This document shows, piece after piece, positions 5,196 to 23,236 of a stretch of 55,310 nucleotides of DNA (the first letter of the stretch is position 1; each line of letters starts with the position of its first letter). Both the position numbers and the translations under genes were made by a program. The notes beneath the pieces were generated by a model. The model did not search any database and had not been told where the DNA came from. It saw nothing but the letters and a program-made list of their open reading frames with translations. The DNA comes from Campylobacterota bacterium (GTDB taxonomy: Bacteria > Campylobacterota > Campylobacteria > Campylobacterales > Nitratiruptoraceae), in contig WGAT01000042.1 in the NCBI GenBank assembly GCA_015494715.1, positions 1-55,310 of the forward strand. The letters run 5' to 3'.

Positions 5196-5305
5196 TGTAA
5201 AGCCTTTTTCATATGGAATTGAAACGCCCAAAAAGTATTTTCGGACATATTAAGACATAATAGTAGAGGGAGTATAACAAAAGAAGGTTTAAAAGAAGTA
5301 TAAAA

Positions 5306-5328
5306 GGGGCAAGCCCCCAAGGGGGCTT
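5306..5328 (-). terminator. Terminator after hsp20 with two alternative hairpins
   Basis: AAGCCCCC (5311-5318) and GGGGGCTT (5321-5328) form an 8-bp stem with a 2-base loop that overlaps the hsp20 stop codon. The centre arm can pair instead with GGGGC (5306-5310). In the minus-strand transcript this second hairpin is followed directly by TTTTAT, so it is the better terminator. The two structures exclude each other. Confidence 0.7.
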
Positions 5329-5770
5329 ATTTCACCTCAATCTTTTTAGCGTTTTGGTGCTGTTCTATTTTAGGAATGGTGATGTAGAGCACACCATCTT
5401 CTACTTTTGCTTCGATTCTCTCAGGATCTGCGTCCGCTGGGAGAGTAAAGCGTCGCTCAAATTTTCCAAAGAAGCTCTCTACACGCTTATAGCCTTTATC
5501 TTCTTCCTCTTTTTTAAATTTTCGCTCCCCGCTGATAACGAGGATATTGTCTTTGACCTCTACGTTGATATCCTCTTTTTTTACACCCGGTAGGTCCACT
5601 TCAATATAGTAGGCTTTTTCGTCCTCTTTTTCATTGACCGCAGGCATCCAGATCGCCTCTTTAGGCATTCGATCGGTAGGAATAACATTTTTTTCCATCT
5701 CGAGCATAGAAGCGATCTTTTTCTCAATATCTCTTAGCTCTCTGAATGGATCTATCATCATTGGTACCAT
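5327..5770 (-). CDS. hsp20: Small heat shock protein (Hsp20/alpha-crystallin)
   Basis: This 147-residue ATP-independent holdase binds unfolding proteins in the cytosol. An N-terminal arm (residues 1-40, MIDPFRELRDIEKKI) precedes an alpha-crystallin domain at about 45-140 with YYIEVDLPGVKKEDINVEV, ILVISGERK, FGKFERRFTLPADAD and the A.(Y/V)EDGVL.ITIPK signature. A terminal IEV resembles the oligomerising IXI/V motif. The gene is monocistronic: it has its own strong promoter (5800-5828), a textbook AGGAGG ribosome binding site 6 bases before the ATG at 5770, and a terminator at its stop. The palindrome in the promoter implies repressor control. Confidence 0.95.
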   Translation of the reverse strand: MVPMMIDPFRELRDIEKKIASMLEMEKNVIPTDRMPKEAIWMPAVNEKEDEKAYYIEVDLPGVKKEDINVEVKDNILVISGERKFKKEEEDKGYKRVESFFGKFERRFTLPADADPERIEAKVEDGVLYITIPKIEQHQNAKKIEVK

Positions 5771-5799
5771 TTTCCACCTCCTTGTGTTATTTTTTGGGA

Positions 5800-5828
5800 A
5801 TTATAGCACTTTAGTGCTATTTTGTCAA
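5800..5828 (-). promoter_or_regulatory. hsp20 promoter with palindromic operator
   Basis: Read on the minus strand, TTGACA (5823-5828) and TATAAT (5800-5805) are separated by exactly 17 bases, a full sigma70 consensus. The perfect palindrome ATAGCACT-TT-AGTGCTAT (5803-5820) fills most of the spacer and overlaps the -10. Its half-sites equal the TAGCACT/AGTGCTA arms of the HrcA CIRCE operator but lie 2 bases apart, where CIRCE has a long spacer. A repressor bound here would block RNA polymerase. Confidence 0.85.
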
Positions 5829-5852
5829 GTTTTTGATATATATTGACTAAAG

Positions 5853-7220
5853 TCATTTTAGTTTCAATACTTTCAAACCATCCCCGCCACAGGTCACATA
5901 TCCTTTATCCCCTTGCGAAGAGATCTTCATATCCGTAGCTGGATAGGGCAGATAGATCTCTTTTTCTTTTTGGGGCACTCCTCCATAAAGCGTATATACC
6001 ATAATGGCAGCTACTTTGTTGAGCACATACAGCCTCTTCTTATCAGGAGCGAGTACGAGTTTGCCCACAGCCTCTCCATTCTCCAAACTCTCTTTTTGGC
6101 CATTAAAGCCGTTAAACATATCAATATGGGCGGAGTTTTCATAAGCTATATAGATACGCTGAGGCCCTACGATAAAATCCTTGATATTTGGTGCATCCAA
6201 AGCACCTAAAAAAGAGGCGGCGCCCACGGCATTTAAACCATATTTTAAAAGACCTTTTGCGCTATCGGCTACATAGAGTCTATCCCCTTGTACCGCAACT
6301 TTAACGGCTGCTCCACAAACATTTTCGATATGATCGATAGGCGTGAAAGTCGAACCTGCCATATGAAATATATAAACGCCTTTGGCATCGGTAGCCACAA
6401 CCACATTATTTCTTGTCGCATCATAGGCGATGTCTACGACACTCGCACCGCTGATGGGAAAGTTAGAGACTTTTTGCATAGCGCTCGTATCGACTACGAC
6501 CAATCCCGCTTGCTCGTCCATCACAAGTTCTCGTCCCTGTCCTCCCGATACCACTTTTAAAGCGTTGGGCGTAGATATATGCGCATAAAGCGTTGGATTG
6601 GTCGGATCGGATAGATCAAGAATTTGGATACCCTCAAGTCCATCGGCTACATAACCAAAAGAGTCACGAATATCTACGAACCAGCTAAAACCGGGCGTAT
6701 CATACGCTCCCATAATATCTACAAACTCTCCCTCGGAGGTATAGACGATAAAAGCTTTTGTATCTTCTATCGTAAAAGTCATATTGTTCAAAGGCAAATA
6801 ATCAAATCGGTGTTGTGGCGTAGCTCCCATTAATTTATAGACTTTTCCACTTTTTATGGAAAGATAAGCCCAAGAGAAAATCCTCTCTTGATCTTTTGGA
6901 AAATCGATAAAGACAAAATAGCCTTGAGGCTCTCGATTTCCAAGATGTACCTCTACGGGCACAAAACCAAAATTATTATTTGGCGTAGGCATAGTCCCCA
7001 AAAGTCTATAGGTACGGCCAGTTATCATACTCTCATAGACCCATTCATTGTACGCAATGTGACCATCGCCATCAAAATCGTACGGATAAAAGGCACCTTT
7101 TAGATCAAAAGGTTTTGCCGTAAGATAAGCTTTAAGCTCTTTGACATAGTATGTATTGGCCGTCGCTCCAAAAAGCCACGACAACATCATACCCGCTACC
7201 ATCAACCATCGTATCATCAT
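5853..7220 (-). CDS. Exported protein with EF-hand loop and LVIVD-type beta-propeller
   Basis: This 455-residue protein has a clear signal peptide (MMIRWLMVAGMMLSWLFGATA). Residues 48-59 are a canonical EF-hand calcium loop (DFDGDGHIAYNE). Two GRTYRLLG/GKVYKLMG segments follow at about 68 and 127. From about 185 there are repeats of the LVIVD/propeller kind, for example YVADGLEGIQILDLSDPTNP, VVVATDAKGVYIFHMAG and YVADSAKGLLKYGL. It probably folds as a periplasmic or surface beta-propeller. It begins directly after ciaB with no gap, so it is co-transcribed with rdgB and ciaB. AAGGAG precedes two adjacent ATG codons (7220 and 7217). The function is unknown; the EF-hand suggests calcium-dependent folding or binding. 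Confidence 0.85.
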   Translation of the reverse strand: MMIRWLMVAGMMLSWLFGATANTYYVKELKAYLTAKPFDLKGAFYPYDFDGDGHIAYNEWVYESMITGRTYRLLGTMPTPNNNFGFVPVEVHLGNREPQGYFVFIDFPKDQERIFSWAYLSIKSGKVYKLMGATPQHRFDYLPLNNMTFTIEDTKAFIVYTSEGEFVDIMGAYDTPGFSWFVDIRDSFGYVADGLEGIQILDLSDPTNPTLYAHISTPNALKVVSGGQGRELVMDEQAGLVVVDTSAMQKVSNFPISGASVVDIAYDATRNNVVVATDAKGVYIFHMAGSTFTPIDHIENVCGAAVKVAVQGDRLYVADSAKGLLKYGLNAVGAASFLGALDAPNIKDFIVGPQRIYIAYENSAHIDMFNGFNGQKESLENGEAVGKLVLAPDKKRLYVLNKVAAIMVYTLYGGVPQKEKEIYLPYPATDMKISSQGDKGYVTCGGDGLKVLKLK

Positions 7221-9714: not shown

Positions 9715-11043
9715 TTGAAACAGATCGTCAAGAAGGTCTTGCCACTGAGCCTTATCGTGGCTCTGCGCTTCTTTGGGCTTTTCATCGTACTCTCGGTATT
9801 GTCCCAGTATGCCTTACAACTGCCCGGAGGGACCGCCTTTTTGGCCGGTGTGGCCGTGGGCGGCTACGCTTTCACCCAAGCGGTGCTACAGGTGCCCTTT
9901 GGAGTCCTAAGCGACAAGATCGGGCGCAAAAAGACCATCTTCATAGGGCTTTTGATCTTCGCCATAGGCTCCGTGATCTGTGCTTTGGCCGACAACATCT
10001 ATGTACTGCTGCTTGGCCGGTTCTTGCAAGGGGCTGGAGCAATCGGCAGCGTGGTCACGGCGATGATCGCCGATTATGTACGCGAAGACGAGCGGGCCCA
10101 TGCTATGGCCGTGATGGGTATGGTGATCGCTCTGAGCTTCGCCGCGGCTATGATTATCGGTCCAATCATCGGAGGGTTGTATAGCGTCAAAGCACTCTTT
10201 TGGCTCACCGCCATCTTAGCGATCCTAGCCCTTGGCATTCTCTTTACTGCGGTCCCAGAACCCCCCAAAATCGTCCACCACTACAGCGAAGAGGAAGCCA
10301 AGATCAAAGAGGTCTTCAAAGATAAAGACCTCGTACGGATGTACATCACCTTTTTATTCCACTCCTCCACTATGGCGATCGCCTTTTTCCTGATCCCAAT
10401 CCTTATGAAACAAAAATTTGGCATGGGACCAGAGCACTACTGGAAAGTCTATCTGCCGGCGGTAATCTTTGGAATTCTTGCTATGGGTCCTGCAGCCGTT
10501 TTTGGAGAAAAGTATCACAAAGGCAAAGAGGTATTCATCATCTCGGTACTTTTCATCGCCGCCGCCTTTGCGCTGATGGGATTTAGCGACTCTTTCTTGC
10601 TTTTTGCCACCGGAGCGGTTTTCTTCTTCATTGGTTTTAATATGTTCGAGCCGCTTTTGCAAAGTTTTGTGAGTAAATTTGCTAGAGTACACCAAAAAGG
10701 GGCAGCCTTAGGCGTAGCCAACACTTTCGCCTACATCGGTATCTTTCTAGGCGGCGCGATAGGAGGTCTTTTATATCAGTACGGCCATGAAAAAGCCGTA
10801 GCGATCTTCGTGCTTATCGTGTGTGTGGTGTGGATCTATTGGATCGTCGGGATGCGAAATCCGGGAGTGCGAGCCAACCTCTTCTTGGATTTCAATCAGT
10901 ATGATAAAGAGAAACTTCCCGGTCTTAAAGTGATGGATGGCATTACCGACTTTTATATCAACGAGACGGAAAAGCTCATCGTAGTCAAATATGACAAAGA
11001 AAAATTAGACGAACAAACGATCAAGGAGTTTTTGAAAAAGTAG
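9715..11043 (+). CDS. MFS transporter with extra C-terminal domain
   Basis: This 442-residue major facilitator superfamily protein has about 12 membrane segments over residues 1-385. The loop 2-3 signature is GVLSDKIGRKKTIFIGL near residue 63. Residues 385-442 are an extra soluble tail: after an aromatic linker, KLPGLKVMDGITDFYINE and KLIVVKYDKEKLDEQTIKEF look like part of an HMA-type ferredoxin-like fold without the CXXC metal site. The start codon is TTG at 9715 with AAAGGA 7 bases upstream. The transported compound cannot be read; drug or metabolite efflux is typical of this branch. It runs convergent with the TlpA-like gene. Confidence 0.88.
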   Translation: MKQIVKKVLPLSLIVALRFFGLFIVLSVLSQYALQLPGGTAFLAGVAVGGYAFTQAVLQVPFGVLSDKIGRKKTIFIGLLIFAIGSVICALADNIYVLLLGRFLQGAGAIGSVVTAMIADYVREDERAHAMAVMGMVIALSFAAAMIIGPIIGGLYSVKALFWLTAILAILALGILFTAVPEPPKIVHHYSEEEAKIKEVFKDKDLVRMYITFLFHSSTMAIAFFLIPILMKQKFGMGPEHYWKVYLPAVIFGILAMGPAAVFGEKYHKGKEVFIISVLFIAAAFALMGFSDSFLLFATGAVFFFIGFNMFEPLLQSFVSKFARVHQKGAALGVANTFAYIGIFLGGAIGGLLYQYGHEKAVAIFVLIVCVVWIYWIVGMRNPGVRANLFLDFNQYDKEKLPGLKVMDGITDFYINETEKLIVVKYDKEKLDEQTIKEFLKK

Positions 11044-11057
11044 CCTTTTGGCTACTT
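11038..11057. terminator. Bidirectional terminator between MFS and tlpA-like genes
   Basis: AAGTAGCC (11038-11045) and GGCTACTT (11050-11057) form a perfect 8-bp stem with a TTTT loop. It overlaps the stop codons of both convergent genes, with an A-run to the left and TTCTT to the right, so it can work in both directions. Confidence 0.7.
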
Positions 11058-11615
11058 CTTCGTCGCATTGCTCTCTTTTGGAGTCTCAACCTTTGGATTG
11101 GCAAGCTTTTGGACAAACCTTTCTAGGCTACTCTCCTCGGCCATTCCCAGATGGTATCCCGCATAATTGCCGTTGCGATCGAAAAAAAGCATAAAAGGAA
11201 TAGTCCCGCTCCAACCTGTAAGCTCACCCATAAACTCTACAAACTCATAGTTATTTTTGTCTACGGCATAGTCGACTATAGGATAGTCGATCCCCAATTT
11301 TTTTAACATCGCAAGATCGCTAGAAGAGAGTGGTCGCTGTACATGTAGACCAATAATTTGTAAACTATTTGCCATCTTCTTTTGCAAATCGCCTAAAATC
11401 GGAATCTCCATTCGGCACGGAGGGCAGTTTTTGCCAAAGAAGTCTAGGATAATCACCTTGTTTGGATACTCTTTGACCTCAATGCCGTTTTTTTTGATAT
11501 GAACATGGATCTTTTTACCATCCACCGTGGTAAGAGTAAAGTTTTTATCCAGTTTCTTAGCTTCCGCACCAAAAAGTAGAGCCACCGCAAAAAGCAGTAC
11601 AAACAACTTCTTCAT
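11052..11615 (-). CDS. Exported TlpA/ResA-like thioredoxin
   Basis: This is a 187-residue periplasmic thioredoxin-fold protein. The signal peptide is MKKLFVLLFAVALLFGAEA. The thioredoxin domain holds the redox pair in FFGKNCPPCRMEIP (CPPC), followed by QIIGLHVQRP, and a cis-proline-like position in WSGTIPFMLFFD. Such proteins reduce disulphides during c-type cytochrome maturation or protect periplasmic thiols. I start it at 11615 because GAAAGGAT lies 5 bases upstream of that ATG and a signal peptide follows. It begins 11 bases after the end of moeA, at the end of the long minus-strand run that also contains two rhodaneses. Confidence 0.9.
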   Translation of the reverse strand: MKKLFVLLFAVALLFGAEAKKLDKNFTLTTVDGKKIHVHIKKNGIEVKEYPNKVIILDFFGKNCPPCRMEIPILGDLQKKMANSLQIIGLHVQRPLSSSDLAMLKKLGIDYPIVDYAVDKNNYEFVEFMGELTGWSGTIPFMLFFDRNGNYAGYHLGMAEESSLERFVQKLANPKVETPKESNATKK

Positions 11616-11626
11616 CTGTAATCCTT

Positions 11627-12838
11627 TCAAATAGAGTTGATAAGCCACACGAGCACCCGCTCGCCAGCATCCTTGTTACCCTCTATAGGCGAAGTGACCA
11701 CGAGCCCTTTATTCTCGCCTAGCATATTGGTCAGTATCGCACTGCTGCCAACTTTATGTCCGGCGAAATCTACAAAAAACTCCCCATCTTCAATAGAGAC
11801 ATTGCAAGGAGTGAACTCCGTCTTTTTGCTCCGTTTGACAAAGGGCTCTTCGAGGGTGGCATAGACCATCTTTGGCTGGTACTTTGCGCCTTGCATGCGA
11901 TAGATAAGTGGCAAGACATAAAGCATGAAAGTAACGGTACTTGAAAAGGCAAATCCGGGCAAAGAGACGATAAACTTTTGGCCAGCTCTTGCTACCATCA
12001 CATGCTGACCGGGCTTGATCACTACCCCTTTAAAGGCTACCTCTGCTCCCAAAGCTTCTCGTACCACATCTTTGACAAAATCGTAATCCCCTACACTTAC
12101 CCCACCGGTGGTGACCAAGATATCACTGCTTCTTAGCCCTTCGCTCATCGCCTCGGTGATTTGGGCTTTCTCGTCTCCCACCGCTCCTAACTGCACAGGC
12201 TCGCCCCCGTGCAAACGGGTGAGTGCCTCTAGGGTATAGTTGTTGGAGCTTCTTAGCTGGGCCGGGGAGCTTTGCTGCTCTCCGATCTCGAGCACTTCGC
12301 TCCCTGTGGAGAGTATCCCCACTTTTGGCCGCTGGTAGACCAGAGGCATCACCACATTGAGGCTTGCCATCACCCCAACTTCGGCAAAGCCTATACGAGA
12401 GCCTTTTTTGATAAGCACTTCCCCCTTGCTATAATTCTCACCCACCGGACGCACGCTAAAACCCTCGGGTACCGGCTCTTTGATAAGGATTCGCTCACCC
12501 TCCACCTCCACATTTTCGATGGGGATGAGCGTATCGGCGCCCTTTGGCATCAATGAGCCCGTAAAGGTCTTGATCGCCTCACCCTCTCGTAGCTCTTTTG
12601 CCACTTCGCTTCCAGCTGGCGTTTGGCCGACGACTCGCAAGCTCCCCTTTGCCTGGTCTTTGGCCTTGATGGCATATCCGTCCATTGCCGCCGTGGGCGC
12701 TGAGGGATTATCCTCTTTGGCCACGATATCTTCGGCCAAAAAGCCTCCTACCGCTTCGGTTAAAAAGATTTTTTGCACCCCGCTTATTGGGACTTGAAGA
12801 TTTTGAAGTATTTTAACCGACTCCTCAAAACTAATCAT
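11627..12838 (-). CDS. moeA: Molybdopterin molybdenumtransferase MoeA
   Basis: MoeA inserts molybdate (or tungstate) into adenylylated molybdopterin. The 403-residue protein has the full set of domains. DNPSAPTAAMDGYA (around residue 37) carries the conserved Asp of the substrate loop, and ILSTGSEVLEIGE near 176, ILVTTGGVSVGDYDFVK near 237 and SLPGFAFSSTVTF near 287 follow. Start at 12838: its ATG overlaps the M23 peptidase stop as ATGA and has AAAAGGAGCC upstream. With moaD and moaE at the other end of this run it points to molybdo- or tungstoenzymes such as periplasmic nitrate reductase or formate dehydrogenase, which are not in the window. Confidence 0.95.
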   Translation of the reverse strand: MISFEESVKILQNLQVPISGVQKIFLTEAVGGFLAEDIVAKEDNPSAPTAAMDGYAIKAKDQAKGSLRVVGQTPAGSEVAKELREGEAIKTFTGSLMPKGADTLIPIENVEVEGERILIKEPVPEGFSVRPVGENYSKGEVLIKKGSRIGFAEVGVMASLNVVMPLVYQRPKVGILSTGSEVLEIGEQQSSPAQLRSSNNYTLEALTRLHGGEPVQLGAVGDEKAQITEAMSEGLRSSDILVTTGGVSVGDYDFVKDVVREALGAEVAFKGVVIKPGQHVMVARAGQKFIVSLPGFAFSSTVTFMLYVLPLIYRMQGAKYQPKMVYATLEEPFVKRSKKTEFTPCNVSIEDGEFFVDFAGHKVGSSAILTNMLGENKGLVVTSPIEGNKDAGERVLVWLINSI

Positions 12839-13869
12839 TTGGCTCCTTTTTTGATGACTTGTACGCTCAAATAGCGCTTTCGCAAAACTTTTAACAATCC
12901 GTTCCAATCGACTTTAGGAATCCGTTTCATCGAAGCAAAATCGTTCTTTCTATCCCAATAAAGAAATTTTAACGGATCGAGCCAGTAAGAGAGGTAGCGT
13001 ACCTCATAGTGTAGATGGGGTCCGGTGCTTCTTCCCGTATTGCCAACTTTAGCTATCGGTTCGCCCCTTTTGACATACTGCCCCGGCCGTACCAAAATCT
13101 TACTCAAATGCCCATAAGCGGTCATAAAACCAAAAGGGTGCTCTATCATCAAAAAATTGCCATATCCGTTTCGCACACCGGCAAAATAGACCACCCCATC
13201 GGCCGGAGCGTAGACGGTTCTACCAATAGGAGCGCTTAAATCCAAACCAAAATGGAACATTTTGCGATGATAAATTGGATGTTGCCGATAGCCAAATCGA
13301 GCGGATATGCGCCTATAGCGTACGGGAAGTCCGATGGGAATGGTTCTATATAAAAGTTTTTTCTCATATTTTGAGAGTTTTTGCACTTTGGAAAAGTAGA
13401 TCAAACTCTTTTGTTCGAGTTTTTCCACACGTTTTGGGAGCGTAGAAACATTACTCTCCGCTCCCACCTCTTCTATACCCAAAATCTTCTCTACCTCTTT
13501 TAACTTGTCGTTCAAAGATAAAAGTTTCTCTTTTTGCTCTTGTATGGCTTGACGCAGCTCTTGGTTTCTTGACTCTAGATCTCTTTGCTGCAAAAGCAAA
13601 AAATTGCCAAATCGCTCCAAACGCCTCTTTTTGGCTGCAAGCTGCTTGTTTTCACGCTTTAATCTTTTGGCAGTTTGTTCTAAAATCTGGGTTTGGCTTC
13701 GTAAATTCTCCACATCTTGGATCAAGAAGTGTGAGAGCATCATAGCCAAACCCACCGCAATCACTATTAAAACGATAATGCCCAATATAACCTTTTTGAC
13801 AATTTGATGCAGCGTATACTGCTTGGTTCCATGTACATCGGTTATGGTTATAATAAATTTGTTCTTCAC
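12835..13869 (-). CDS. Membrane-anchored M23 peptidoglycan peptidase (Csd1/TagE-like)
   Basis: This 344-residue LytM/M23 zinc endopeptidase probably trims peptidoglycan crosslinks. The order is a short cytosolic N-terminus, one membrane helix (about 25-50), a periplasmic coiled coil (about 53-145, containing LEQTAKRLKRENKQLAAKK), and a C-terminal M23 domain with HFGLD (first His and Asp ligands), then GYGNFLMIEHPFGFMTAYGHL and GPHLHYEV (HXH). All metal ligands are present, so it should be active. In Helicobacter, relatives Csd1/Csd2 set helical cell shape with the bactofilin CcmA, and a bactofilin is encoded about 4 kb upstream in the same run. It overlaps moeA by 4 bases. Confidence 0.9.
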   Translation of the reverse strand: MKNKFIITITDVHGTKQYTLHQIVKKVILGIIVLIVIAVGLAMMLSHFLIQDVENLRSQTQILEQTAKRLKRENKQLAAKKRRLERFGNFLLLQQRDLESRNQELRQAIQEQKEKLLSLNDKLKEVEKILGIEEVGAESNVSTLPKRVEKLEQKSLIYFSKVQKLSKYEKKLLYRTIPIGLPVRYRRISARFGYRQHPIYHRKMFHFGLDLSAPIGRTVYAPADGVVYFAGVRNGYGNFLMIEHPFGFMTAYGHLSKILVRPGQYVKRGEPIAKVGNTGRSTGPHLHYEVRYLSYWLDPLKFLYWDRKNDFASMKRIPKVDWNGLLKVLRKRYLSVQVIKKGAK

Positions 13870-13882
13870 CTACACTCTACTC

Positions 13883-14974
13883 TCAATATTTGGGGATTCT
13901 TAACTTTTGCCCCGGAAAAATAAGTTTTGGATCTTTAATGATATCCTGATTGGCCTCATAGATTTTTACATATGCAGAGGCTTGACCATAAAATCGCTTG
14001 GCAATTTTTGACAATGTATCTCCCGGTGCCACGATATAGTATCGGTTGACCGCCTCTCTGGTTTGAGCTTCTCGTACCAATCCTTTGATATAACTTTTCT
14101 CTTTGGCTTCTTTAATTACAGGAGGAGTTTTCACGATAGCGGCAAGTTTTTGGCTCAATTGAGCAATTGGAGTAGCCTCTTTTTTCTTTTTTTGTATATT
14201 TTTATCCAGAACAACTTGGTTGTTTAGATATTCAGTCTTGGCTACCGCCACTTTTTTTTTAGATCCGGAGCTTTTTTTACGCTCTAAAATCAATTTTTCA
14301 ATATCTATATTTTTTAGCTGATCGGGTTTTAAAGAGCGAAGATATTCAATCAACTCCTCGTCACTCATCTCTTGTACGCTTTTTTGCCCTACCGAAGATG
14401 ATGCGACTTTTTTGGTCTGCTTGGTACTCGCTTGTACGGAAGCTAAAGCACTAGAGACCGAAGAGTTCGTTGTGGACTGAGCCACTTTTTGAGATAAAGC
14501 AGAAACAGACTGAACCTTTTGGGCCACCATAGTACTTTGGACTTGTGCAGACACACTTTTTTTGGAATTAGACGAGACGGCAGCCGTCTGTTTAGTTTGG
14601 GATACAAAAGATGCTGCCGCTAAGGAACTTTTTGATTGGTTGGAGTGTGTCGCCGTGGTTAGAGTGCTAACTCCTTGCGATATGAGGGAGGATTGTGGGG
14701 CCGTCGTGGAAGCATGTTGCTTTTTTTTTTCCACCGCGGCTACCGGTTTTGCACCTTGATGTTCAGCAAAAGCCTTTTTGGCATACATATATCCTATAAT
14801 ACCCAACACGATCAAAAGAGCGATCAGTACAATAATAAGAAGTATTTGAATTATCTTGGAAAAAGGACTCGGAGTCGGAGCAGCCTTGAAATGATGATCA
14901 TTTGGATCATGTGCTCCATTAGCGCCTTCTCCATAAGCAAAGAATTCTTCTTCAACACTTGTATTTCGTTTCAT
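13883..14974 (-). CDS. Membrane-anchored LysM peptidoglycan-binding protein
   Basis: This 363-residue protein has a short cytosolic N-terminus, one membrane helix (about 38-67), and a long Ser/Gln/Ala/Lys-rich low-complexity periplasmic stretch (about 75-225). It ends with a LysM domain (about 312-363: YIVAPGDTLSKIAKRFYG to IFPGQKLRIPKY). LysM binds GlcNAc-containing glycan, so the protein probably tethers the inner membrane to peptidoglycan or places a partner there. It lies 13 bases upstream of the M23 peptidase and 12 bases after the rhodanese gene. The two wall proteins may act as a pair. Confidence 0.88.
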   Translation of the reverse strand: MKRNTSVEEEFFAYGEGANGAHDPNDHHFKAAPTPSPFSKIIQILLIIVLIALLIVLGIIGYMYAKKAFAEHQGAKPVAAVEKKKQHASTTAPQSSLISQGVSTLTTATHSNQSKSSLAAASFVSQTKQTAAVSSNSKKSVSAQVQSTMVAQKVQSVSALSQKVAQSTTNSSVSSALASVQASTKQTKKVASSSVGQKSVQEMSDEELIEYLRSLKPDQLKNIDIEKLILERKKSSGSKKKVAVAKTEYLNNQVVLDKNIQKKKKEATPIAQLSQKLAAIVKTPPVIKEAKEKSYIKGLVREAQTREAVNRYYIVAPGDTLSKIAKRFYGQASAYVKIYEANQDIIKDPKLIFPGQKLRIPKY

Positions 14975-14986
14975 GGTTTTTCCTTT

Positions 14987-15661
14987 CTATTTGGTTTGAC
15001 TGTTTTTGATAAAGTTTCCTTTTTCGACCACAGTCGTAAGTCCCAACAGCTTCCATCCTTGCATACCGTTGCGGTAATACAGGATTTTGTCTGCGGGATA
15101 TCCATACTTTATTAAATTTCTAATCAACCGTGGCGATTGGTCACACCATACGCCATTACAAAAAATTAATAACTCTTTTGCGTTTGAAAAGTCTAGCTTG
15201 CCGTTTTTCTCTTTTGCACCAAGCAGTTTAAAAAAAGCGACGATTTTTTCCTTGGAAGGATTGGACTCCAAAAAAGTAAAAGGAACATTAATGGCTGAGG
15301 GAATAGTCTCGGCATAATACCATTTAGGAAGCCGTGCATCGATAATAATCCCTTTCCCACTATTTACTTTATCTCTCATAAATTTCACGACTTCTACCGT
15401 TGCCACCGTCTTGACCCTTTTATCCACCTTGATAGGATGGATACAAAAGGGAGGACAAGGCCGAGAAGTTTTACTATAATCGTCGGTAAGAAGATGATTG
15501 GTATCTTGAATACGCATCACTTTGACCTTAACACCCTTATGATCTACATAAACATAAGGGATATCTGGGGTGATTTTGACAAGATAGATCTCATCTTCTT
15601 TTTTCTTCGTCGCACCAAAGGCTAGACCCACCAACAAAACAAGAGTGACCACAATTCTCAT
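14987..15661 (-). CDS. Exported rhodanese-like protein 1
   Basis: This 224-residue protein has a signal peptide (MRIVVTLVLLVGLAFGA). An N-terminal module of about 90 residues (VMRIQDTNHLL, TSRPCPPFCI) is shared with the paralogue at 17397-18050. A rhodanese domain (about 95-215) follows, with IIIDARLPKWYYAETIPSA, the loop LIFCNGVWCDQSPR and LYYRNGMQGWKLLGL. The loop carries two cysteines. Only the second, in NGxWCxQ, is kept in the paralogue, so it is probably the sulfur carrier. CPPFC in the N-terminal module could form a disulphide. It lies 12 bases downstream of the tetra-PilJ gene. A periplasmic sulfane-sulfur role is inferred. Confidence 0.87.
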   Translation of the reverse strand: MRIVVTLVLLVGLAFGATKKKEDEIYLVKITPDIPYVYVDHKGVKVKVMRIQDTNHLLTDDYSKTSRPCPPFCIHPIKVDKRVKTVATVEVVKFMRDKVNSGKGIIIDARLPKWYYAETIPSAINVPFTFLESNPSKEKIVAFFKLLGAKEKNGKLDFSNAKELLIFCNGVWCDQSPRLIRNLIKYGYPADKILYYRNGMQGWKLLGLTTVVEKGNFIKNSQTK

Positions 15662-15673
15662 CGACGATCCTTT

Positions 15674-17341
15674 TTAATATTCAAGTACTACTTCTGAAAG
15701 TTTAACAGCTTTATCCATCTCTTTCAAAAGAATGGGATTTTTTTGAATAATGCGATTAAGTTCTTTAGGACTATTTTTCTTTTTTAAATAAAGAGGTTTG
15801 AGCTCTTGCCACAAAGAGGCCACTTTCTTATACTGAGCCACCAGTTTTGGATTGGTGGGCTTGATGATATAGTGCTTTTTGTCTCCATACATCAATCGTT
15901 TTAGCGAAGTATCAAACAATTCTACAGTCGTTACCATCTTTTTCCAATTGGTTTGAGGATCGATACCCAATGTCACAAGCATCTTCTCTTTTGTCATTTT
16001 TTGCGTCAACATCCGTTGACGTCCCGCAATATCGACAATCTCTTTTCTGGCGTCTTCCAAAAAATTATGAGTAGCATACTCTTTTTTGAAAGTTTGCACG
16101 AGATCGTTCGATCTTTTTAAAAGCTCTTCGTTATCGGCTATGATATAAGCCAAAGCGTTGGGATCCTTTCCTTGTGAGGCGAGTACTTGCTCTACACTTT
16201 TTTTAAAAGGTTTCCAAACCTCTTGCACTTTTGCGATCTCCTTTTTAATAACCTCGTTTTTTGCGGGCGGTAGCTGCAGCTCCTTATCCCCCACCAAAAA
16301 ACCGCGAAGAGTTTTATCGTACAATTGATAGGAATTTTTAAGTAATTTTTGCGTTTTTTGTTTATCGATATTCAAAGCATCCATCAACGCCAATTTACTC
16401 ATACGCTGGGTCAACATTCGCTGTTTACCGGCAAGATTGATAATATGTTTGGCCTCTTGCTCTTGTTTTTCAAAACTGCTTACCAACTGCGAAAGGGCTC
16501 GCGCGCGCTTTTCTCGATTGATAGACTTCTCATACATTTTGGTAATCTTATCCATCTGGCTCAACAAAAGATTACTTTTTTGCACCAATGCCCTTAATTT
16601 TTCTTTGGATAGTTTTTTAGGTACGGCTAGTTTCTCATACTCTTGCCACATCTTTTGGGCTTTATGCAGTTCCTTATTGATCCACGGCAGTTTCGTCTCT
16701 TCTAGCCCAAGCTTTTTATCCCCTTTTTGCAATCCATGTAAAATTCTGGCAAATAATTTTTTATCTTCGCGAAGGATTGGTGCTTGATCTTTATATCCGT
16801 ATTGTACGAGCAGTACGTCTTTAGCAATTTTTTGAGAGAGCATTCTCTCTTTACCCGCAAGATTTATCGCTTGCGCTCTTTTTATCTTAGCCCCTTTGTT
16901 TAAGGCTACATACATCTCCACGATCGCATTCATCCGTTTTAATAGATCTAAATTATTCTTTTTTATATATTCAATCGTTTTTTTATCAAAATTTCCATCT
17001 ATTACTTTTTCTAAAGCCTGCTTAAAAGGCGCCCAACGCTTTTGCAAATCACTAATTGCCTCTTTGATCTTTTGATCTTCTACGGGGACAAGCCCTAACT
17101 CTTTATCCCCTTGCAACAGACCTTGTAAAGTCCTTGAAAAAAGCTCCATATCTTTTTTTAAATCTTTTTTTGCCTCTTGCTCATTCACATGAAGAGCTAC
17201 CATCAAGGCCTCTTTGCTCATTCTTTGTATCAACATCCTTTGTTTACCGGCCAAATTGATATCCTTGGCCAACTCACTCGTCGTCGGGCCCGCATTGCCC
17301 AAAGTAAATAGTAGAAAAAAAGCGATAAGTAATCGTGTCAT
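15674..17341 (-). CDS. Exported protein of four tandem PilJ/NarX-like sensor repeats
   Basis: This 555-residue protein has a signal peptide (MTRLLIAFFLLFTLGNA), no other membrane segment and no signalling domain. Four repeats of about 130-140 residues each begin with a P-box-like helix: INLAGKQRMLIQRMSK (about 28), INLAGKERMLSQKIAK (about 159), INLAGKQRMLTQRMSK (about 301) and VDIAGRQRMLTQKMTK (about 436). Each also carries a later GDK motif (LLQGDKELGL, LQKGDKKLGL, FLVGDKELQL, LMYGDKKHYI). This is the PilJ-type domain of chemoreceptors and of the NarX/NarQ nitrate sensors. A free periplasmic tetramer of sensor units suggests a binding protein, possibly for nitrate or nitrite. I chose 17341 as start, with AAAGGA upstream. 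Confidence 0.88.
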   Translation of the reverse strand: MTRLLIAFFLLFTLGNAGPTTSELAKDINLAGKQRMLIQRMSKEALMVALHVNEQEAKKDLKKDMELFSRTLQGLLQGDKELGLVPVEDQKIKEAISDLQKRWAPFKQALEKVIDGNFDKKTIEYIKKNNLDLLKRMNAIVEMYVALNKGAKIKRAQAINLAGKERMLSQKIAKDVLLVQYGYKDQAPILREDKKLFARILHGLQKGDKKLGLEETKLPWINKELHKAQKMWQEYEKLAVPKKLSKEKLRALVQKSNLLLSQMDKITKMYEKSINREKRARALSQLVSSFEKQEQEAKHIINLAGKQRMLTQRMSKLALMDALNIDKQKTQKLLKNSYQLYDKTLRGFLVGDKELQLPPAKNEVIKKEIAKVQEVWKPFKKSVEQVLASQGKDPNALAYIIADNEELLKRSNDLVQTFKKEYATHNFLEDARKEIVDIAGRQRMLTQKMTKEKMLVTLGIDPQTNWKKMVTTVELFDTSLKRLMYGDKKHYIIKPTNPKLVAQYKKVASLWQELKPLYLKKKNSPKELNRIIQKNPILLKEMDKAVKLSEVVLEY

Positions 17342-17396
17342 TTTATATCCTTTTATCAATACACTTTAAAAACCTCTAATCAAAATCTTTTCACTT

Positions 17397-18050
17397 TTAA
17401 TATTTAACCTCTTTTAACGTAATAGGATTAAAGACAGTCAGTCCGACAATTTGCCAATACTGCATCCCGCCTCTATAATACTTGATCTTCTCTTTTGGAT
17501 ATCCAAGCGCCACAAGATGTTTTATCGCCGTAACGGCTTGTTGACACCAAGGCCCGTTATCAAAGACTAAAATGGTCAAAGCTTTAGAAAAATCCCACTT
17601 ATCCCCTTTTTTTTGCGCACCAAACAACGAAAGAATTTTCTCGGTATAACGCTTATCCGCCAACATGGAAAAGGGGATGTTCATCGCTCCGGGGATAGTC
17701 CCTTGCTTGTACCACTGAGGCATTCGCCCATCTATGAGCAGCCCTTGATCGCTGTTTAATTTATCACGAATAAAGTAGATAGTCTCTAGCTCCCCATAAG
17801 TCTCTATCCCCGGAATCGGCTGAAACTTTTGGATATAAAAGGGCGGAGTGGGGCGAGAAGTTCGTATATAGCTGTTGCGTAATTTATGATGGGTATCTTG
17901 AATGCGCTGTATCCGTACGGGCACGCCCCACACGTCCACATCCACATATGGCAAATCTTTTGTGATATTGACCTTTAATTTTTCGGCAAACAAACTATTA
18001 GCCCCGAGCATCCATATCATCAAAAAAAACAGAGCTGTAAAACTTCTCAT
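17397..18050 (-). CDS. Exported rhodanese-like protein 2
   Basis: This 217-residue paralogue of the 14987-15661 product has a signal peptide (MRSFTALFFLMIWMLGANSLFA), the same N-terminal module (RIQRIQDTHHKL, TSRPTPPFYI) and a rhodanese domain with LLIDGRMPQWYKQGTIPGA, LVFDNGPWCQQA and YYRGGMQYWQIVGL. The first loop cysteine of protein 1 is Asp here and the CPPFC pair is lost, leaving the NGPWCQQ cysteine as the only loop thiol. Its ATG overlaps the bactofilin stop by 4 bases, and the PilJ-repeat gene follows after 55 bases. The two rhodaneses bracket the PilJ protein, so a joint role is likely. Confidence 0.87.
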   Translation of the reverse strand: MRSFTALFFLMIWMLGANSLFAEKLKVNITKDLPYVDVDVWGVPVRIQRIQDTHHKLRNSYIRTSRPTPPFYIQKFQPIPGIETYGELETIYFIRDKLNSDQGLLIDGRMPQWYKQGTIPGAMNIPFSMLADKRYTEKILSLFGAQKKGDKWDFSKALTILVFDNGPWCQQAVTAIKHLVALGYPKEKIKYYRGGMQYWQIVGLTVFNPITLKEVKY

Positions 18051-18817
18051 CGTTTCTCTCCTTTTTTATTGTCTATGAGCACTTCTATACACTCGTTTTC
18101 CCCTTGTTCTTTCTCTTTTTTTAGCTCCTCTTCCACATCCACTTCATACTCTTTATCTTCTAAAAGAATGTAGTCGCTGCGGGAGTTAAAGATATTAAGA
18201 TAATAGGCCATCTCTTGATCTTGAGCGGCAAGATCGGTATATCGTCCAATATACCCTTCTATCCTTCCACCCTCGTTTTGTATCTCGTCGGCAAACATTT
18301 TACCCCGCAAGACGCATGTTGGAAGGGTTCGAAGCTCTTTACAGGCCACGTTTCCTTCCAATAATCCGGCCACCACCACCTTTTTTATCTGAGCATCGGC
18401 ATAGGTTTCTCCCCCTGCATCGATAAAAAGTCCGCCGGCCAAAAGCTTTCCTTTATAATGTCCTTTGATCAAGACTTTATTAGCTTGTATCTTGCCCTCA
18501 CACTTCCCTTTTTCCAATATCTCTACGCTATCTGCAATGATATCGCCTTGAAAATGGCCATTGATAATGACCCGTTGGGCTTTAATATCCCCATAAAGCT
18601 CTCCCGTAGTTCCCAAAATAACTATGTTATTGACCTTGATATTCCCTTGGTAGTATCCATCCAAATGGACAGAATCATTGCCTATTATGCGACCCGTTAC
18701 GTTGGTTCCCCTAGGGATAATCATCGTATGGGTCGGATCGACCTCCGTCTCCTCTTCATTATTTTGATAGTTGACGCCAAAAATACTCATAAGCCATTTT
18801 TTCGGTTTTAAAGCCAT
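18047..18817 (-). CDS. Bactofilin (polymer-forming cytoskeletal protein)
   Basis: This 256-residue bactofilin polymerises into filaments that guide cell shape. The right-handed beta-helix core shows as short repeats: IGNDSVHLDGYYQGNIKVNN, GELYGDIKAQRVIINGHFQG, DSVEILEKGKCEG and NKVLIKGHYKGKL, over about residues 40-180. An acidic C-terminal tail of about 60 residues (VDVEEELKKEKEQGENE) is unusually long for the family. In Helicobacter pylori the bactofilin CcmA works with M23 peptidases, and an M23 peptidase and a LysM protein lie downstream here. It starts after a 72-base gap with a candidate promoter and an AAGGAG site, and overlaps rhodanese 2. Confidence 0.92.
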   Translation of the reverse strand: MALKPKKWLMSIFGVNYQNNEEETEVDPTHTMIIPRGTNVTGRIIGNDSVHLDGYYQGNIKVNNIVILGTTGELYGDIKAQRVIINGHFQGDIIADSVEILEKGKCEGKIQANKVLIKGHYKGKLLAGGLFIDAGGETYADAQIKKVVVAGLLEGNVACKELRTLPTCVLRGKMFADEIQNEGGRIEGYIGRYTDLAAQDQEMAYYLNIFNSRSDYILLEDKEYEVDVEEELKKEKEQGENECIEVLIDNKKGEKR

Positions 18818-19619: not shown

Positions 19620-20354
19620 ATGATTATCGGCAAAATAGACTATATTAATTTACTTCCTTTTTATACTTTCTTAAAAAAAGAGCTCAAAAACTCCAGCAGT
19701 CGCAAAGCTTTGGAATTTTATAAAGGCACTCCTGCACAGGTCAACAAAAAATTTGTCAAAAGGCGGGTGGAAGCGGCGGTAATATCGAGTATATTCTCCC
19801 CAAAATATCGTTGTAGCGACTTTGGGATCGTGGCTTACCAAAGAGTTTTGAGCGTTCTTGTTTGTCCCGGTCCGCCCAAAGAGGACGAGGAGTCCAATAC
19901 CTCCAATGTTTTAGCCAAGGTGCTTGGCATACAAGGAGAGGTGCGCATAGGGGATAAAGCTCTGCTTCAAAAAAATCCTACCTGTAAGGATCTAGCCTCT
20001 TTATGGTATAAAAGGACGGGTTTGCCTTTTGTTTTTGCCAGATTTTGCTACCACCCCCAAAAAGCTAAAGAGTATGCGGCCTTAGCCGATAATTTTTTAA
20101 AGTCCCATACCAAAATACCTACCTACTTACTCAAACGCTACGCCAAGCGAAGCGGAGTAAGTCAAAAAGAGATCAGGCACTACTTAAAACTCATTGGATA
20201 TAAAATCCAAAAAAAAGAGAAAATGGGGCTTAAAAAATTTTTATATCTGGCTAAAAGAGTAAAAAATGAGACTAATTCTACCACTCATACTACCGCTGCT
20301 TCTTCTTGCCCAGCTCCCCTTTGCACCCATTCCCAAAAAGATAGCCTACGATAA
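19620..20354 (+). CDS. mqnA: Chorismate dehydratase MqnA (futalosine menaquinone pathway)
   Basis: MqnA converts chorismate to 3-enolpyruvylbenzoate, the entry to futalosine-dependent menaquinone synthesis used by Campylobacterota. The 244-residue protein starts MIIGKIDYINLLPFY, the family's N-terminus, and has AAVISSIFSPKYRC near 51, VLVCPGPP near 82, IGDKALL near 111 and YKRTGLPFVFARFCYHP near 130. It has a periplasmic-binding-protein-like fold but no signal peptide, so it is cytosolic. No ribosome binding site is visible. Its last 89 bases overlap the peroxidase gene in another frame. The tail after KFLYLAKRVKN looks unconserved and Ser/Thr-rich, as if an earlier stop had been lost. Confidence 0.88.
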   Translation: MIIGKIDYINLLPFYTFLKKELKNSSSRKALEFYKGTPAQVNKKFVKRRVEAAVISSIFSPKYRCSDFGIVAYQRVLSVLVCPGPPKEDEESNTSNVLAKVLGIQGEVRIGDKALLQKNPTCKDLASLWYKRTGLPFVFARFCYHPQKAKEYAALADNFLKSHTKIPTYLLKRYAKRSGVSQKEIRHYLKLIGYKIQKKEKMGLKKFLYLAKRVKNETNSTTHTTAASSCPAPLCTHSQKDSLR

Positions 20355-21186
20355 GAAACTAGCACTACTTGGCAAAAGCCTCTTTTTTGATCCGCTCCTC
20401 TCAAGCGACAAATCCGTCTCTTGCGCTAGCTGTCACAAACCATCCCACGCCGGAGCGGACGACCACGCTCTTTCCCAAGGAGTAGGGGGTCAAAAAGGAG
20501 AGCTCAACGCACCTACGGTGTATAACGCCTTTTTTCAATTTGCCCAGTTTTGGAACGGCAGAGCCTCCTCGCTGCAAGAGCAAGCGGCCCGCCCTTTACA
20601 TAATCCCAAAGAGATGAATATGAGCACAAGCTCGCTCCTTGCCCGTTTACAAAACTCTCCTTACTACAAAAAAGCTTTTGAGCGTCTGTTTGGCGGCCAA
20701 AAAATCACGTTTGATATGCTCACCCAAGCTCTTGCCGAATTTGAAAAAGCTCTTTATACTCCAAACTCCAAATTCGATCGCTTCTTGCGAAAAGAGGTCT
20801 CTCTTACTCCCAAGGAGCGGCGAGGCTATTTGCTCTTTAAAGAGCTCGGATGCGTCACCTGCCACAACGGCGTCAACTTAGGGGGCAACTCTTTCCAAAA
20901 GATAGGCACGCTCATCCCCTATCCGGGTCCTTTACCCCACGACCGCTACGAAGTGACCAAAAATCCCAAAGATAAAGGGGTTTACAAAGTCCCCTCACTT
21001 CGCAACGTCGCTTTAAGCGCTCCATATTTCCACGATGGCTCTATCCCTACGCTGCGCCAAGCCGTCGCCAAGATGACATACTACAACTTAGGCTTTTACC
21101 TCTCTGCCAAAGAGCAAGAGGCTATCGTAGCCTTTCTTAAGACCCTAACGGGCCGACCACCGGCCATTCTCCAAGAGGAGGAGTAG
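20266..21186 (+). CDS. Periplasmic di-haem cytochrome c peroxidase
   Basis: This 306-residue protein of the CcpA/MauG family reduces hydrogen peroxide in the periplasm with electrons from cytochrome c. A signal peptide (MRLILPLILPLLLLAQLPFA) precedes two c-haem sites: SCASCHKPSHAG (near 54) and GCVTCHNGVNLGG (near 198). GKSLFFDPLLSSDKSVSC, NAPTVYNAFFQFAQFWNGRA and YKVPSLRNVALSAPYFHDGS are classical peroxidase segments. The start is at 20266: a weak AAAAGAG precedes it and the signal peptide follows directly. It overlaps mqnA by 89 bases and is followed after 1 base by the GGDEF-EAL gene. Confidence 0.93.
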   Translation: MRLILPLILPLLLLAQLPFAPIPKKIAYDKKLALLGKSLFFDPLLSSDKSVSCASCHKPSHAGADDHALSQGVGGQKGELNAPTVYNAFFQFAQFWNGRASSLQEQAARPLHNPKEMNMSTSSLLARLQNSPYYKKAFERLFGGQKITFDMLTQALAEFEKALYTPNSKFDRFLRKEVSLTPKERRGYLLFKELGCVTCHNGVNLGGNSFQKIGTLIPYPGPLPHDRYEVTKNPKDKGVYKVPSLRNVALSAPYFHDGSIPTLRQAVAKMTYYNLGFYLSAKEQEAIVAFLKTLTGRPPAILQEEE

Positions 21187-21187
21187 G

Positions 21188-23236
21188 ATGCGACTCCTTT
21201 TTACTATCTTTTTAGGAGTCGTAGGATTTGCGCTTTTTTGGTTTTTCCAGCAATATAGTCAACACTATTTCCAAACCCGCACCCAACTCTCCTCTTGGAC
21301 CAAAGAGATGCTACACGATGAGACCCGTTTGGAATATGAGGTACTCAAAAACTCCTTTTTCCTCTATCAAAATTATGATGAGCTCTCCTCCATTCAAAAA
21401 CGGCTGCAAACAAGCATCCAACAGGCAAAAACTTTTCCTATCCTAAACCAAAATGAAGAGCTTCGTACCATCTATGAACGCTACGAAAAACTGCTTGTAC
21501 ACAAACTAGAACAAATAGAAAAATTCAAACAGACCAACGCTACCATCAAAAATTCCATCACCTATCTTTTGCGGATGCTTCAAAACATGCCCCCCAAATA
21601 TCTCAAACAAAAAAAGATCGCCACAGCCATTTTGCGTTTGGAAGGAGATATCCTACTAGCCAAAAATGCTCTGGATCCAGATTTTTTACATCCTATTCAA
21701 AAAGAGGCGGATTTACTGAACTCTTTTATCAAACACAAAAATCCCAAAGAGTATCTTTTTCGCCTCCTCATCCATACCAAACTCTTCGTACACGCCTTTC
21801 CCTCCTACACTACCACGCTGCATACCATCACCCATTTGCAAACCATACAGACCCTCAAAAGTTTAGAAAACAGCCTAGAGCGATATTTTGCCCAGCAAGG
21901 CAAAAAGGTGCAAGAGCTCTTTTATCTCTTGCTCTTTTTTTATTTTCTCTCCATTCTTGGCATCTTGTACCTCATCCATCGGCTCTCTCAAGAAAACAGC
22001 GCTCTTAAAGAGCTGCAGAGCAAACTGCAACACTACGCCATTACCGACGATTTGACCGGACTTTTAAACAGACGGGCCTACAAACAAGATATCCGACGAA
22101 TCGCCTCCCCTTTCTTTGCCATCGTCGATATCAATAGATTCAAGCAGTACAACGACTTTTACGGGAATAAAGTGGGGGACCATATCCTACGACAAAGTGC
22201 AAAGATTCTCCAAAAAGCCTTGCCTTTGCATTACGAGGCAAAACTCTATCGGCTAGGCTCGGACGAATTTGGGGTTTTGATAGACGAAAAGACGCCCATT
22301 GACGAGAAAAGGTTCGCCTCGTCGATTATAGAGACTTTCAACAAAGAAAAGATCACTTTTAAAAATATCGAATTTTTTGTCAGCGTTTCTGTGGGAATGA
22401 CGCGAAAACGGCCTTTACTCGAGAGTGCGGATATGGCTTTGCGATCCATCAAAGAGCGTTATCACCGCAACTACGCCATTTTTAGCAAAGAGCTGGACTA
22501 TTTTGAGCAGATAAAAGAAAATATCAAAAAAAGCAAAACCATCAAAGAGGCGGTACAAAAAGATTATATCGTCCCATTTTTCCAACCCATCATCCACAAC
22601 GCCACGGGAGCCATAGCCAAGTACGAATCTTTGGGCAGGATTAGAGAAAAGGATCGCTATGAGAGCATCTATCCCTACTTGGACTTGGCCAAAGAGATGG
22701 GTTTGTATCCTAAAATCACCAAAGCAATGCTCTACAAAAGCTTCCTTGCCCTAAAAAAACTCCAAAAACCGATCTCTTTGAACATCTCGATGAACGATAT
22801 CGAAAATCCCGATATTCTTAAACTCTTAGGAGAGCTCCTCAAACAAAACGCCAATATGGCTCCTTTTATCACTTTTGAAATCTTAGAGAGTGAAACCCTC
22901 AAAGACTATAAAACGGTCAAAGATTTCATCTCCATCATCAAAGCTCAAGGCTGCCAAGTAGCCATTGACGATTTTGGCAGCGGCTACTCCAACTTTGCCC
23001 ATATTTTTAATATGGAGATCGATTACATTAAAATAGACGGCTCGCTTATTGAACAGCTTCCAACGAGCCAAAACGCAAGGCGAGTAGTACGAGCCATCCA
23101 CGATCTAGCCAAGGAGTCGGGTATCCAGACCATAGCGGAGTTTGTCAGCAACGCCGCCATATTCGAGGAGGTCAAAAATATCGGTATCGACTACTCCCAA
23201 GGCTACTTTTTTGAAAAACCAAGACCCATTATTTGA
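21188..23236 (+). CDS. Membrane GGDEF-EAL protein (c-di-GMP turnover)
   Basis: This 682-residue protein has an N-terminal membrane helix (about 2-18), an all-helical periplasmic sensor (about 20-238), a second membrane helix (about 240-262), GGDEF at about 280-425, and EAL at about 445-680. The GGDEF signature reads RLGSDEFGVLI, so the second Gly is Ser. In the EAL domain the first motif is KYESLGRI, with Ala changed to Ser. FEILES, IDDFGSGYSNF, YIKIDGS and AEFVSN are intact, so the phosphodiesterase metal ligands look present. The protein may be mainly a phosphodiesterase. It follows the peroxidase gene by 1 base and overlaps maeB by 8 bases at the end. Confidence 0.92.
   Translation: MRLLFTIFLGVVGFALFWFFQQYSQHYFQTRTQLSSWTKEMLHDETRLEYEVLKNSFFLYQNYDELSSIQKRLQTSIQQAKTFPILNQNEELRTIYERYEKLLVHKLEQIEKFKQTNATIKNSITYLLRMLQNMPPKYLKQKKIATAILRLEGDILLAKNALDPDFLHPIQKEADLLNSFIKHKNPKEYLFRLLIHTKLFVHAFPSYTTTLHTITHLQTIQTLKSLENSLERYFAQQGKKVQELFYLLLFFYFLSILGILYLIHRLSQENSALKELQSKLQHYAITDDLTGLLNRRAYKQDIRRIASPFFAIVDINRFKQYNDFYGNKVGDHILRQSAKILQKALPLHYEAKLYRLGSDEFGVLIDEKTPIDEKRFASSIIETFNKEKITFKNIEFFVSVSVGMTRKRPLLESADMALRSIKERYHRNYAIFSKELDYFEQIKENIKKSKTIKEAVQKDYIVPFFQPIIHNATGAIAKYESLGRIREKDRYESIYPYLDLAKEMGLYPKITKAMLYKSFLALKKLQKPISLNISMNDIENPDILKLLGELLKQNANMAPFITFEILESETLKDYKTVKDFISIIKAQGCQVAIDDFGSGYSNFAHIFNMEIDYIKIDGSLIEQLPTSQNARRVVRAIHDLAKESGIQTIAEFVSNAAIFEEVKNIGIDYSQGYFFEKPRPII

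Follow-up and report, generated by a model that had tools for sequence, protein, structure and literature searches.

Exported rhodanese-fold proteins, a membrane-anchored LysM protein and an optional four-PilJ protein in a conserved gene block of Campylobacterota

Which function could unite two exported rhodanese paralogues with an exported protein built from four PilJ repeats? The question is raised by a contig of a Campylobacterota bacterium of the family Nitratiruptoraceae (GenBank assembly GCA_015494715.1, contig WGAT01000042.1), analysed as a stretch of 55,310 nucleotides (the window). The two rhodanese genes and the PilJ gene bracketed by them, as described in an initial annotation based on the sequence alone, were recovered on the minus strand with their domains confirmed by Pfam (Table 1). 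They belong to a minus-strand series of genes for a bactofilin, RhodA, PilJ4, RhodB, a LysM protein with a transmembrane helix (TM-LysM) and an M23-type peptidase, followed by MoeA- and redoxin-type genes. The bactofilin and RhodA genes overlap by 4 nt, and the intergenic gaps within the block measure 12 to 55 nt. A terminator scan of the minus strand found no terminator-like site from RhodA to the LysM gene, and promoter counts in the block scan were little higher than in shuffled sequences. RhodA, PilJ4 and RhodB form a single operon, which continues into the conserved TM-LysM gene. The PilJ4 reading frame is open from TTG 17359, with ATG 17341 appearing on inspection as the likelier start. 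The claimed export of all three products is also supported, in that their N-termini resemble Sec signals and a heuristic hydrophobicity scan found the hydrophobic N-terminal stretch kept in 62 of 64 RhodA, 57 of 58 RhodB and all 24 PilJ4 relatives.

Table 1. Features of the gene block and its flanks (positions in the window)
Feature	Position	Strand	Remarks
Bactofilin, flanking cell-shape gene	18047..18817	-	PF04519 3.8e-27; membership uncertain
RhodA, exported rhodanese-fold protein	17397..18050	-	Pfam Rhodanese 8e-13
PilJ4, exported soluble protein, four PilJ domains	15674..17341	-	Pfam PilJ 1.8e-70, 4 stretches
PilJ4 N-box, repeat 1 INLAGKQRMLIQ	17225..17260	-	One position off the pattern; G32, R35, M36 invariant in 23 proteins
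PilJ4 N-box, repeat 2 INLAGKERMLSQ	16832..16867	-	One position off the pattern; G163, R166, M167 invariant in 23 proteins
PilJ4 N-box, repeat 3 INLAGKQRMLTQ	16406..16441	-	Exact; G305, R308, M309 invariant in 23 proteins
PilJ4 N-box, repeat 4 VDIAGRQRMLTQ	16001..16036	-	Exact; G440, R443, M444 invariant in 23 proteins
RhodB, exported rhodanese with catalytic Cys	14987..15661	-	Pfam Rhodanese 1.6e-10
TM-LysM protein	13883..14974	-	LysM 2.1e-10
M23 peptidase-type gene, flanking, 3' of the LysM gene	12835..13869	-	Membership uncertain
Thioredoxin/redoxin-type gene, downstream in the operon	11052-11648		

The two rhodaneses differ at the catalytic position. RhodB carries the predicted catalytic Cys168 (codon 15158-15160) within the motif CNGVWC, whereas its place in RhodA is occupied by Asp164 (codon 17559-17561), the loops reading FCNGVWC and VFDNGPWC, respectively; RhodA likewise has PTPPFY where RhodB has CPPFC. 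Relatives were collected by a scan with an eight-sequence RhodA alignment over one genome per species (GTDB), which yielded 67 loci, 65 of them tallied. The catalytic column of RhodA contains Asp in 64 of the 65 and Ser in one, but never Cys, a tally biased towards Asp by its inclusion in one of the two scan patterns; a protein search without any pattern, run on 397 Campylobacterota genomes, also gave Asp in 8 of 8 RhodA loci. Since Asp (once Ser) replaces the catalytic Cys throughout, RhodA is probably a non-catalytic pseudo-enzyme, and the plural “sulfur-transfer enzymes” of the initial annotation has to be given up. The CPPFC motif occurs in just 12 of 65 RhodA sequences. The conservation of FDNGPW among RhodA relatives despite the consistently absent Cys fits a retained pseudo-enzyme.

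A maximum-likelihood tree parts RhodA (65 rows) and RhodB (58 rows) by single supported branches (95/90 and 100/94), and the split, as judged from these sequences, is an old one in which one line was kept non-catalytic. Both rhodaneses are equally conserved, each with 82% identity to the nearest distinct species, and RhodA is therefore not decaying; its sequence is 99% identical to that in a Nitratiruptor MAG, the closest relative with a name, which places the DNA in Nitratiruptor. The dN values are close (0.134 for RhodA, 0.110 for RhodB), dS is saturated for RhodA and 1.9 for RhodB, and dN/dS of RhodB amounts to 0.058, dS being saturated for the other genes compared. In some related genomes a rhodanese pair adjoins a short transmembrane protein without LysM; the upstream rhodanese of these pairs retains the Cys (CNGAWC) and is placed by the tree outside the RhodA clade.

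PilJ4 accounts for all four PilJ places detected by Pfam in its own genome. Pfam found no domain other than PilJ in the protein and accordingly no cytosolic output domain, in agreement with the initial annotation, and a hydrophobic 19-mer after residue 45 is absent from 23 of 24 PilJ4 sequences. Nitrate-binding PilJ domains are characterized by the N-box [IVL][ND]xAGxQRML[ST]Q, and in the nitrate chemoreceptor McpN Arg61 forms hydrogen bonds to nitrate, with Gly58 and Met62 among the further contacts (PMC6381276). An exact N-box is present in 59 of 96 repeats from 24 four-repeat proteins, and all 4 x 23 aligned repeats, from proteins down to 39% identity, keep the contact Gly, Arg and Met without exception. 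The predicted structure consists of four 4-helix bundles (mean pLDDT 87.8), for which the best single-domain structure match is McpN (6gcv; TM 0.79-0.81, rmsd 2.0-2.2 Å). Nitrate binding by PilJ4 is predicted because both contact residues and fold are conserved; the suspected ligand-binding potential thus receives support, and we regard PilJ4 as a soluble, exported, putative oxyanion binder with nitrate as the most likely ligand. In comparisons among PilJ4 proteins repeats of the same index were the best matches in 1770 of 2024 cases, and the four-repeat layout is therefore old and its order ancestral. McpN binds one nitrate on the symmetry axis of its dimer. For PilJ4, the modelling (pTM 0.53) leaves a homodimer with stacked repeats and an intra-chain pairing of repeats 1+2 and 3+4 into nitrate sites equally likely.

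The 67 RhodA loci stem nearly all from Campylobacterota MAGs, many of them from vents, besides one titled only “bacterium” and one from Rhodobacteraceae. The TM-LysM protein, composed of one N-terminal transmembrane helix, a long low-complexity linker and a C-terminal LysM domain, adjoins RhodA/RhodB in nearly all loci having enough downstream sequence, a constant partner overlooked in the initial annotation. PilJ4 follows directly 3' of RhodA in 26 of the 65 tallied loci, with RhodB-LysM or LysM-RhodB further 3'; 28 loci have RhodA-LysM-RhodB without PilJ4, and a few RhodA-RhodB-LysM. Five loci were scored as RhodA alone, of which three lie at a contig edge, one has LysM and RhodB slightly further away and one is a true lone RhodA locus. 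On the RhodA tree the presence of PilJ4 (26 of 60 rows) requires five changes and the gene order behind PilJ4 three, from which we conclude that the block was mostly inherited, with few gains or losses. It is found again in further genomes of the genus and also outside the family, which argues against chance, and both RhodA and PilJ4 are absent from four genomes of the same genus. Among the 397 Campylobacterota genomes, seven, which are related to each other, contain a full-length PilJ4, all within the eight with an Asp-type RhodA, and two of the seven encode stand-alone PilJ4 paralogues as well. The absence of PilJ4 from most loci together with these paralogues indicates that the core does not require it. 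RhodA, TM-LysM and RhodB are the core of the block and PilJ4 is an optional part. The three-gene unit envisaged initially is consequently retained as a conserved block but not in its composition, and the independent scattering that would speak against a unit is found in part, for the PilJ gene.

The rhodanese-LysM link extends beyond the Campylobacterota. The one clear match outside the phylum, from Rhodobacteraceae, is an Asp-type rhodanese gene overlapping a TM-LysM gene, and related rhodaneses occur in 66 of 199 genomes of its family. At the best 20 loci of Paracoccaceae, a family of Alphaproteobacteria, a TM-LysM gene lies beside an exported rhodanese on the same strand in 19, the rhodaneses usually carrying CPPFC and CNGPWC; the loci read place the pair at accD-folC (gene names from sequences). 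The 20 loci look like one vertical locus and therefore count as one event, in a genomic setting different from that in Campylobacterota. Exported rhodaneses thus accompany a LysM protein anchored in the membrane in two groups that are far apart, and two families often annotated only by domain gain a function-linked partner. Plasmid relatives of RhodB without a LysM neighbour also exist, near DsrE, DoxX, DUF302 and multicopper oxidase genes, a sulfur/redox setting.

We tentatively propose, at a probability somewhat short of even, that RhodB, RhodA and the LysM scaffold constitute an envelope-tethered periplasmic sulfur-transfer station, to which PilJ4 was added as an oxyanion binder. The TM-LysM protein would serve as the scaffold reaching from the inner membrane to the peptidoglycan, and RhodB would hold sulfane sulfur, with thiosulfate or polysulfide as source, bound to Cys168 in persulfide form. 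The non-catalytic partner of RhodB would be RhodA, whose catalytic Cys is replaced by Asp, a role suggested by two-domain rhodaneses, in which an active C-terminal domain is assisted by an inactive N-terminal one; the association of RhodA, TM-LysM and RhodB is proposed because their genes are linked in two groups. Some members of the lineage might have PilJ4 docked onto this assembly, where it would report nitrate or a similar oxyanion (nitrite, sulfite) and tune the assembly to the nitrate supply. The gene block itself, its domains, the loss or retention of the catalytic residue and the conserved N-boxes and fold are observed; persulfide chemistry, peptidoglycan binding and nitrate binding are ascribed to the block by analogy with known families, while the physical complex, the docking of PilJ4 and the direction in which control runs, from binder to rhodaneses, are conjectural. 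A more specific version appears to us improbable. In it, the pseudo-rhodanese/rhodanese pair anchored at the wall would be gated by the soluble nitrate binder with its four N-boxes, bypassing kinases, receptors and transcription altogether; if true, periplasmic sulfur transfer would respond directly to nitrate and the block would be an extracytoplasmic control unit of a new kind. Most genomes, with or without PilJ4, contain NapA, either complete or as a large fragment, and since NapA is near-universal its co-occurrence neither supports nor refutes a coupling of PilJ4 to nitrate respiration.

A main rival is a cell-wall role, suggested by the exact placement of the Nitratiruptor block between a bactofilin and an M23 gene; relatives lacking the block have the homologous M23 gene directly beside a small bactofilin. 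On this view, the block would belong to the shape machinery of bactofilin and M23: LysM would anchor it to the wall, the rhodanese folds would contribute binding or redox functions, and PilJ4 would be either a sensor or a helical spacer. The flanking bactofilin gene is the only one in the genome, and a bactofilin adjoins RhodA in 17 of 65 loci, with M23 next in several. Most loci, however, have no bactofilin beside RhodA, the Paracoccaceae pairs adjoin accD-folC instead, and invariant N-box contact residues are unexpected for a spacer; we give this role a low probability.

Alternatively, the core and PilJ4 might be co-transcribed but unrelated in role, PilJ4 acting as a soluble nitrate-binding co-sensor for a distant kinase. 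Besides the loci lacking PilJ4 and its stand-alone paralogues, this possibility is backed by exported two-repeat PilJ proteins adjoining a hybrid histidine kinase in four genomes. Against it speak the position of linked PilJ4 genes, always directly 3' of RhodA, and the small number of presence changes on the RhodA tree, and we likewise attach a low probability to it.

A third alternative concerns the activity of RhodB. The catalytic Cys is present in 49 of 58 RhodB relatives and missing in nine, while CPPFC (Cys69, Cys73) is kept more strictly, in 58 of 58. CNGVWC has a Cys at its sixth position and lacks the Arg closing the CX4R active-site loop, a loop type that is common but not universal in active rhodaneses. 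RhodB might be a thiol-redox or metal-handling protein acting through the cysteine pairs of CPPFC and CNGVWC, as suggested by the conservation of the four Cys, the thioredoxin/redoxin-type gene downstream in the operon and the multicopper oxidase genes near the plasmid relatives. The rhodanese fold and the catalytic-loop position are nevertheless retained (Pfam; Foldseek matches to rhodaneses), and we consider such a function rather unlikely as well. The RhodB model is of moderate quality (mean pLDDT 73.4; about 50-74 around CPPFC), and a sequence search retrieved no solved relative better than E 0.01. PspE, MnmH, PQQ-CXXCW and TsoB were considered as identities for the rhodaneses of the block and rejected, all models (for PspE that of NCBIfam) scoring far below cut-off. 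A last option, that PilJ4 senses sulfite released by thiosulfate sulfurtransfer instead of nitrate, draws on RhodB being encoded in the same block and on the binding of nitrate, nitrite and sulfite by NarX and NarQ, which are structurally homologous to McpN, but McpN, which among solved structures matches a single repeat best, is nitrate-specific (PMC6381276), which leaves this option very unlikely.

Of the sulfur- or nitrogen-oxide handling system first suggested for the locus, export, a conserved block and binding potential are supported, but not two enzymes or a three-gene unit. A published match to this make-up was likewise not found; searches of titles and abstracts, covering few subscription journals, for PilJ or LysM with rhodanese and for combinations with Nitratiruptor and bactofilin gave no account of the block. 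To our knowledge its families are known and their combination is undescribed to date. Sulfur oxidation with nitrate is a major lifestyle of vent Campylobacterota, and we know of no worked-out account of how sulfur handling is matched to nitrate supply in the periplasm. A conserved block that combines four nitrate boxes and a wall anchor with two rhodaneses, one active-looking and the other apparently dead, provides a concrete, testable candidate for such matching.

Parts of the block resemble known systems. Sud of Wolinella succinogenes is a periplasmic single-domain rhodanese handling polysulfide. Neither Sud nor PspE is known to us to have a partner pseudo-enzyme, a LysM anchor or an associated PilJ protein. 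The latter, from E. coli, is a periplasmic single-domain rhodanese that handles thiosulfate (PMC10215317). In two-domain rhodaneses the inactive domain comes first and the active one second, and the lost Cys is often replaced by Asp or Gly (PMC6272796, PMC7995614). Bovine rhodanese, RhdA and the mercaptopyruvate sulfurtransferases combine both domains in one chain, whereas RhodA and RhodB are two exported chains from two genes, which are adjacent at some loci and separated by other genes elsewhere. A membrane-linked inactive rhodanese domain with Asp for Cys is also found in TROL of the Arabidopsis thylakoid (PMC12295754); TROL, however, is a plant protein with its own transmembrane helices and an FNR-binding domain, and has neither LysM nor PilJ. 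Tandem PilJ domains as in PilJ4 form the periplasmic region of the PilJ chemoreceptor (PDB 7ZJR, 8WDF), the best PDB sequence match of PilJ4 (1e-9), which differs in having only two domains, N-boxes that are not conserved and a place within a chemoreceptor; its domains are reported not to bind nitrate (PMC6381276). The ligand-binding domain of McpN (P. aeruginosa PA2788, PDB 6GCV) shares with PilJ4 the four-helix PilJ fold and the N-box Gly, Arg and Met (TM 0.81, rmsd 2.0 Å and 28% identity to a repeat). McpN presents this fold as one domain of a membrane chemoreceptor, whereas PilJ4 comprises four exported domains whose mature form is devoid of transmembrane helix and signalling domain.

In four related genomes, two exported rhodaneses lie next to each other and are followed by a short transmembrane protein (L119–L122). 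The upstream rhodanese of each pair keeps its Cys, and the pair is possibly a Cys-keeping relative of the arrangement of RhodA, the exported rhodanese-fold protein with Asp in place of the catalytic Cys, and RhodB, its Cys-containing exported counterpart. Elsewhere, a GNGAWD rhodanese without the Cys and a divergent LysM gene adjoin a PstS-like exported binding protein. In G096, RhodB is followed by an OmpA-domain protein with TSP3 repeats. Upstream of the block and on the opposite strand, the window carries one di-haem cytochrome c peroxidase-type gene and one GGDEF/EAL-type gene, as read from the sequence.

PilJ proteins also occur in other settings. At two loci, napA is flanked by a Crp/Fnr-type regulator and a PilJ-type protein that is membrane-bound and whose cytosolic tail is short; regulator and PilJ-type protein likely constitute a nitrate sensor pair. 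At another locus, a [NiFe]-hydrogenase gene series is followed by a two-repeat PilJ protein that is exported and carries N-boxes, the published motif of nitrate-binding PilJ domains.

Coordinates of rhodanese, PilJ and neighbouring genes
Locus	Positions	Feature
Window	20266-23236	Peroxidase-type gene, GGDEF/EAL-type gene
L065 (G096)	10711-11925	OmpA-domain protein
L117 (G392)	4576-6846	PstS-like protein, rhodanese, LysM gene
L119	6388-8099	Rhodanese pair
L072	4972-5964	PilJ-type protein, regulator
L074	4372-5373	PilJ-type protein, regulator
L067	9504-10415	Two-repeat PilJ protein

Finally, exported two-repeat PilJ proteins stand two in tandem in four genomes (L069, L070, L076 and L077; G003, G058, G131 and G047). 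The genes beside them encode a large hybrid histidine kinase as well as a further exported protein, a small one. The arrangement looks like a separate PilJ co-sensor system.
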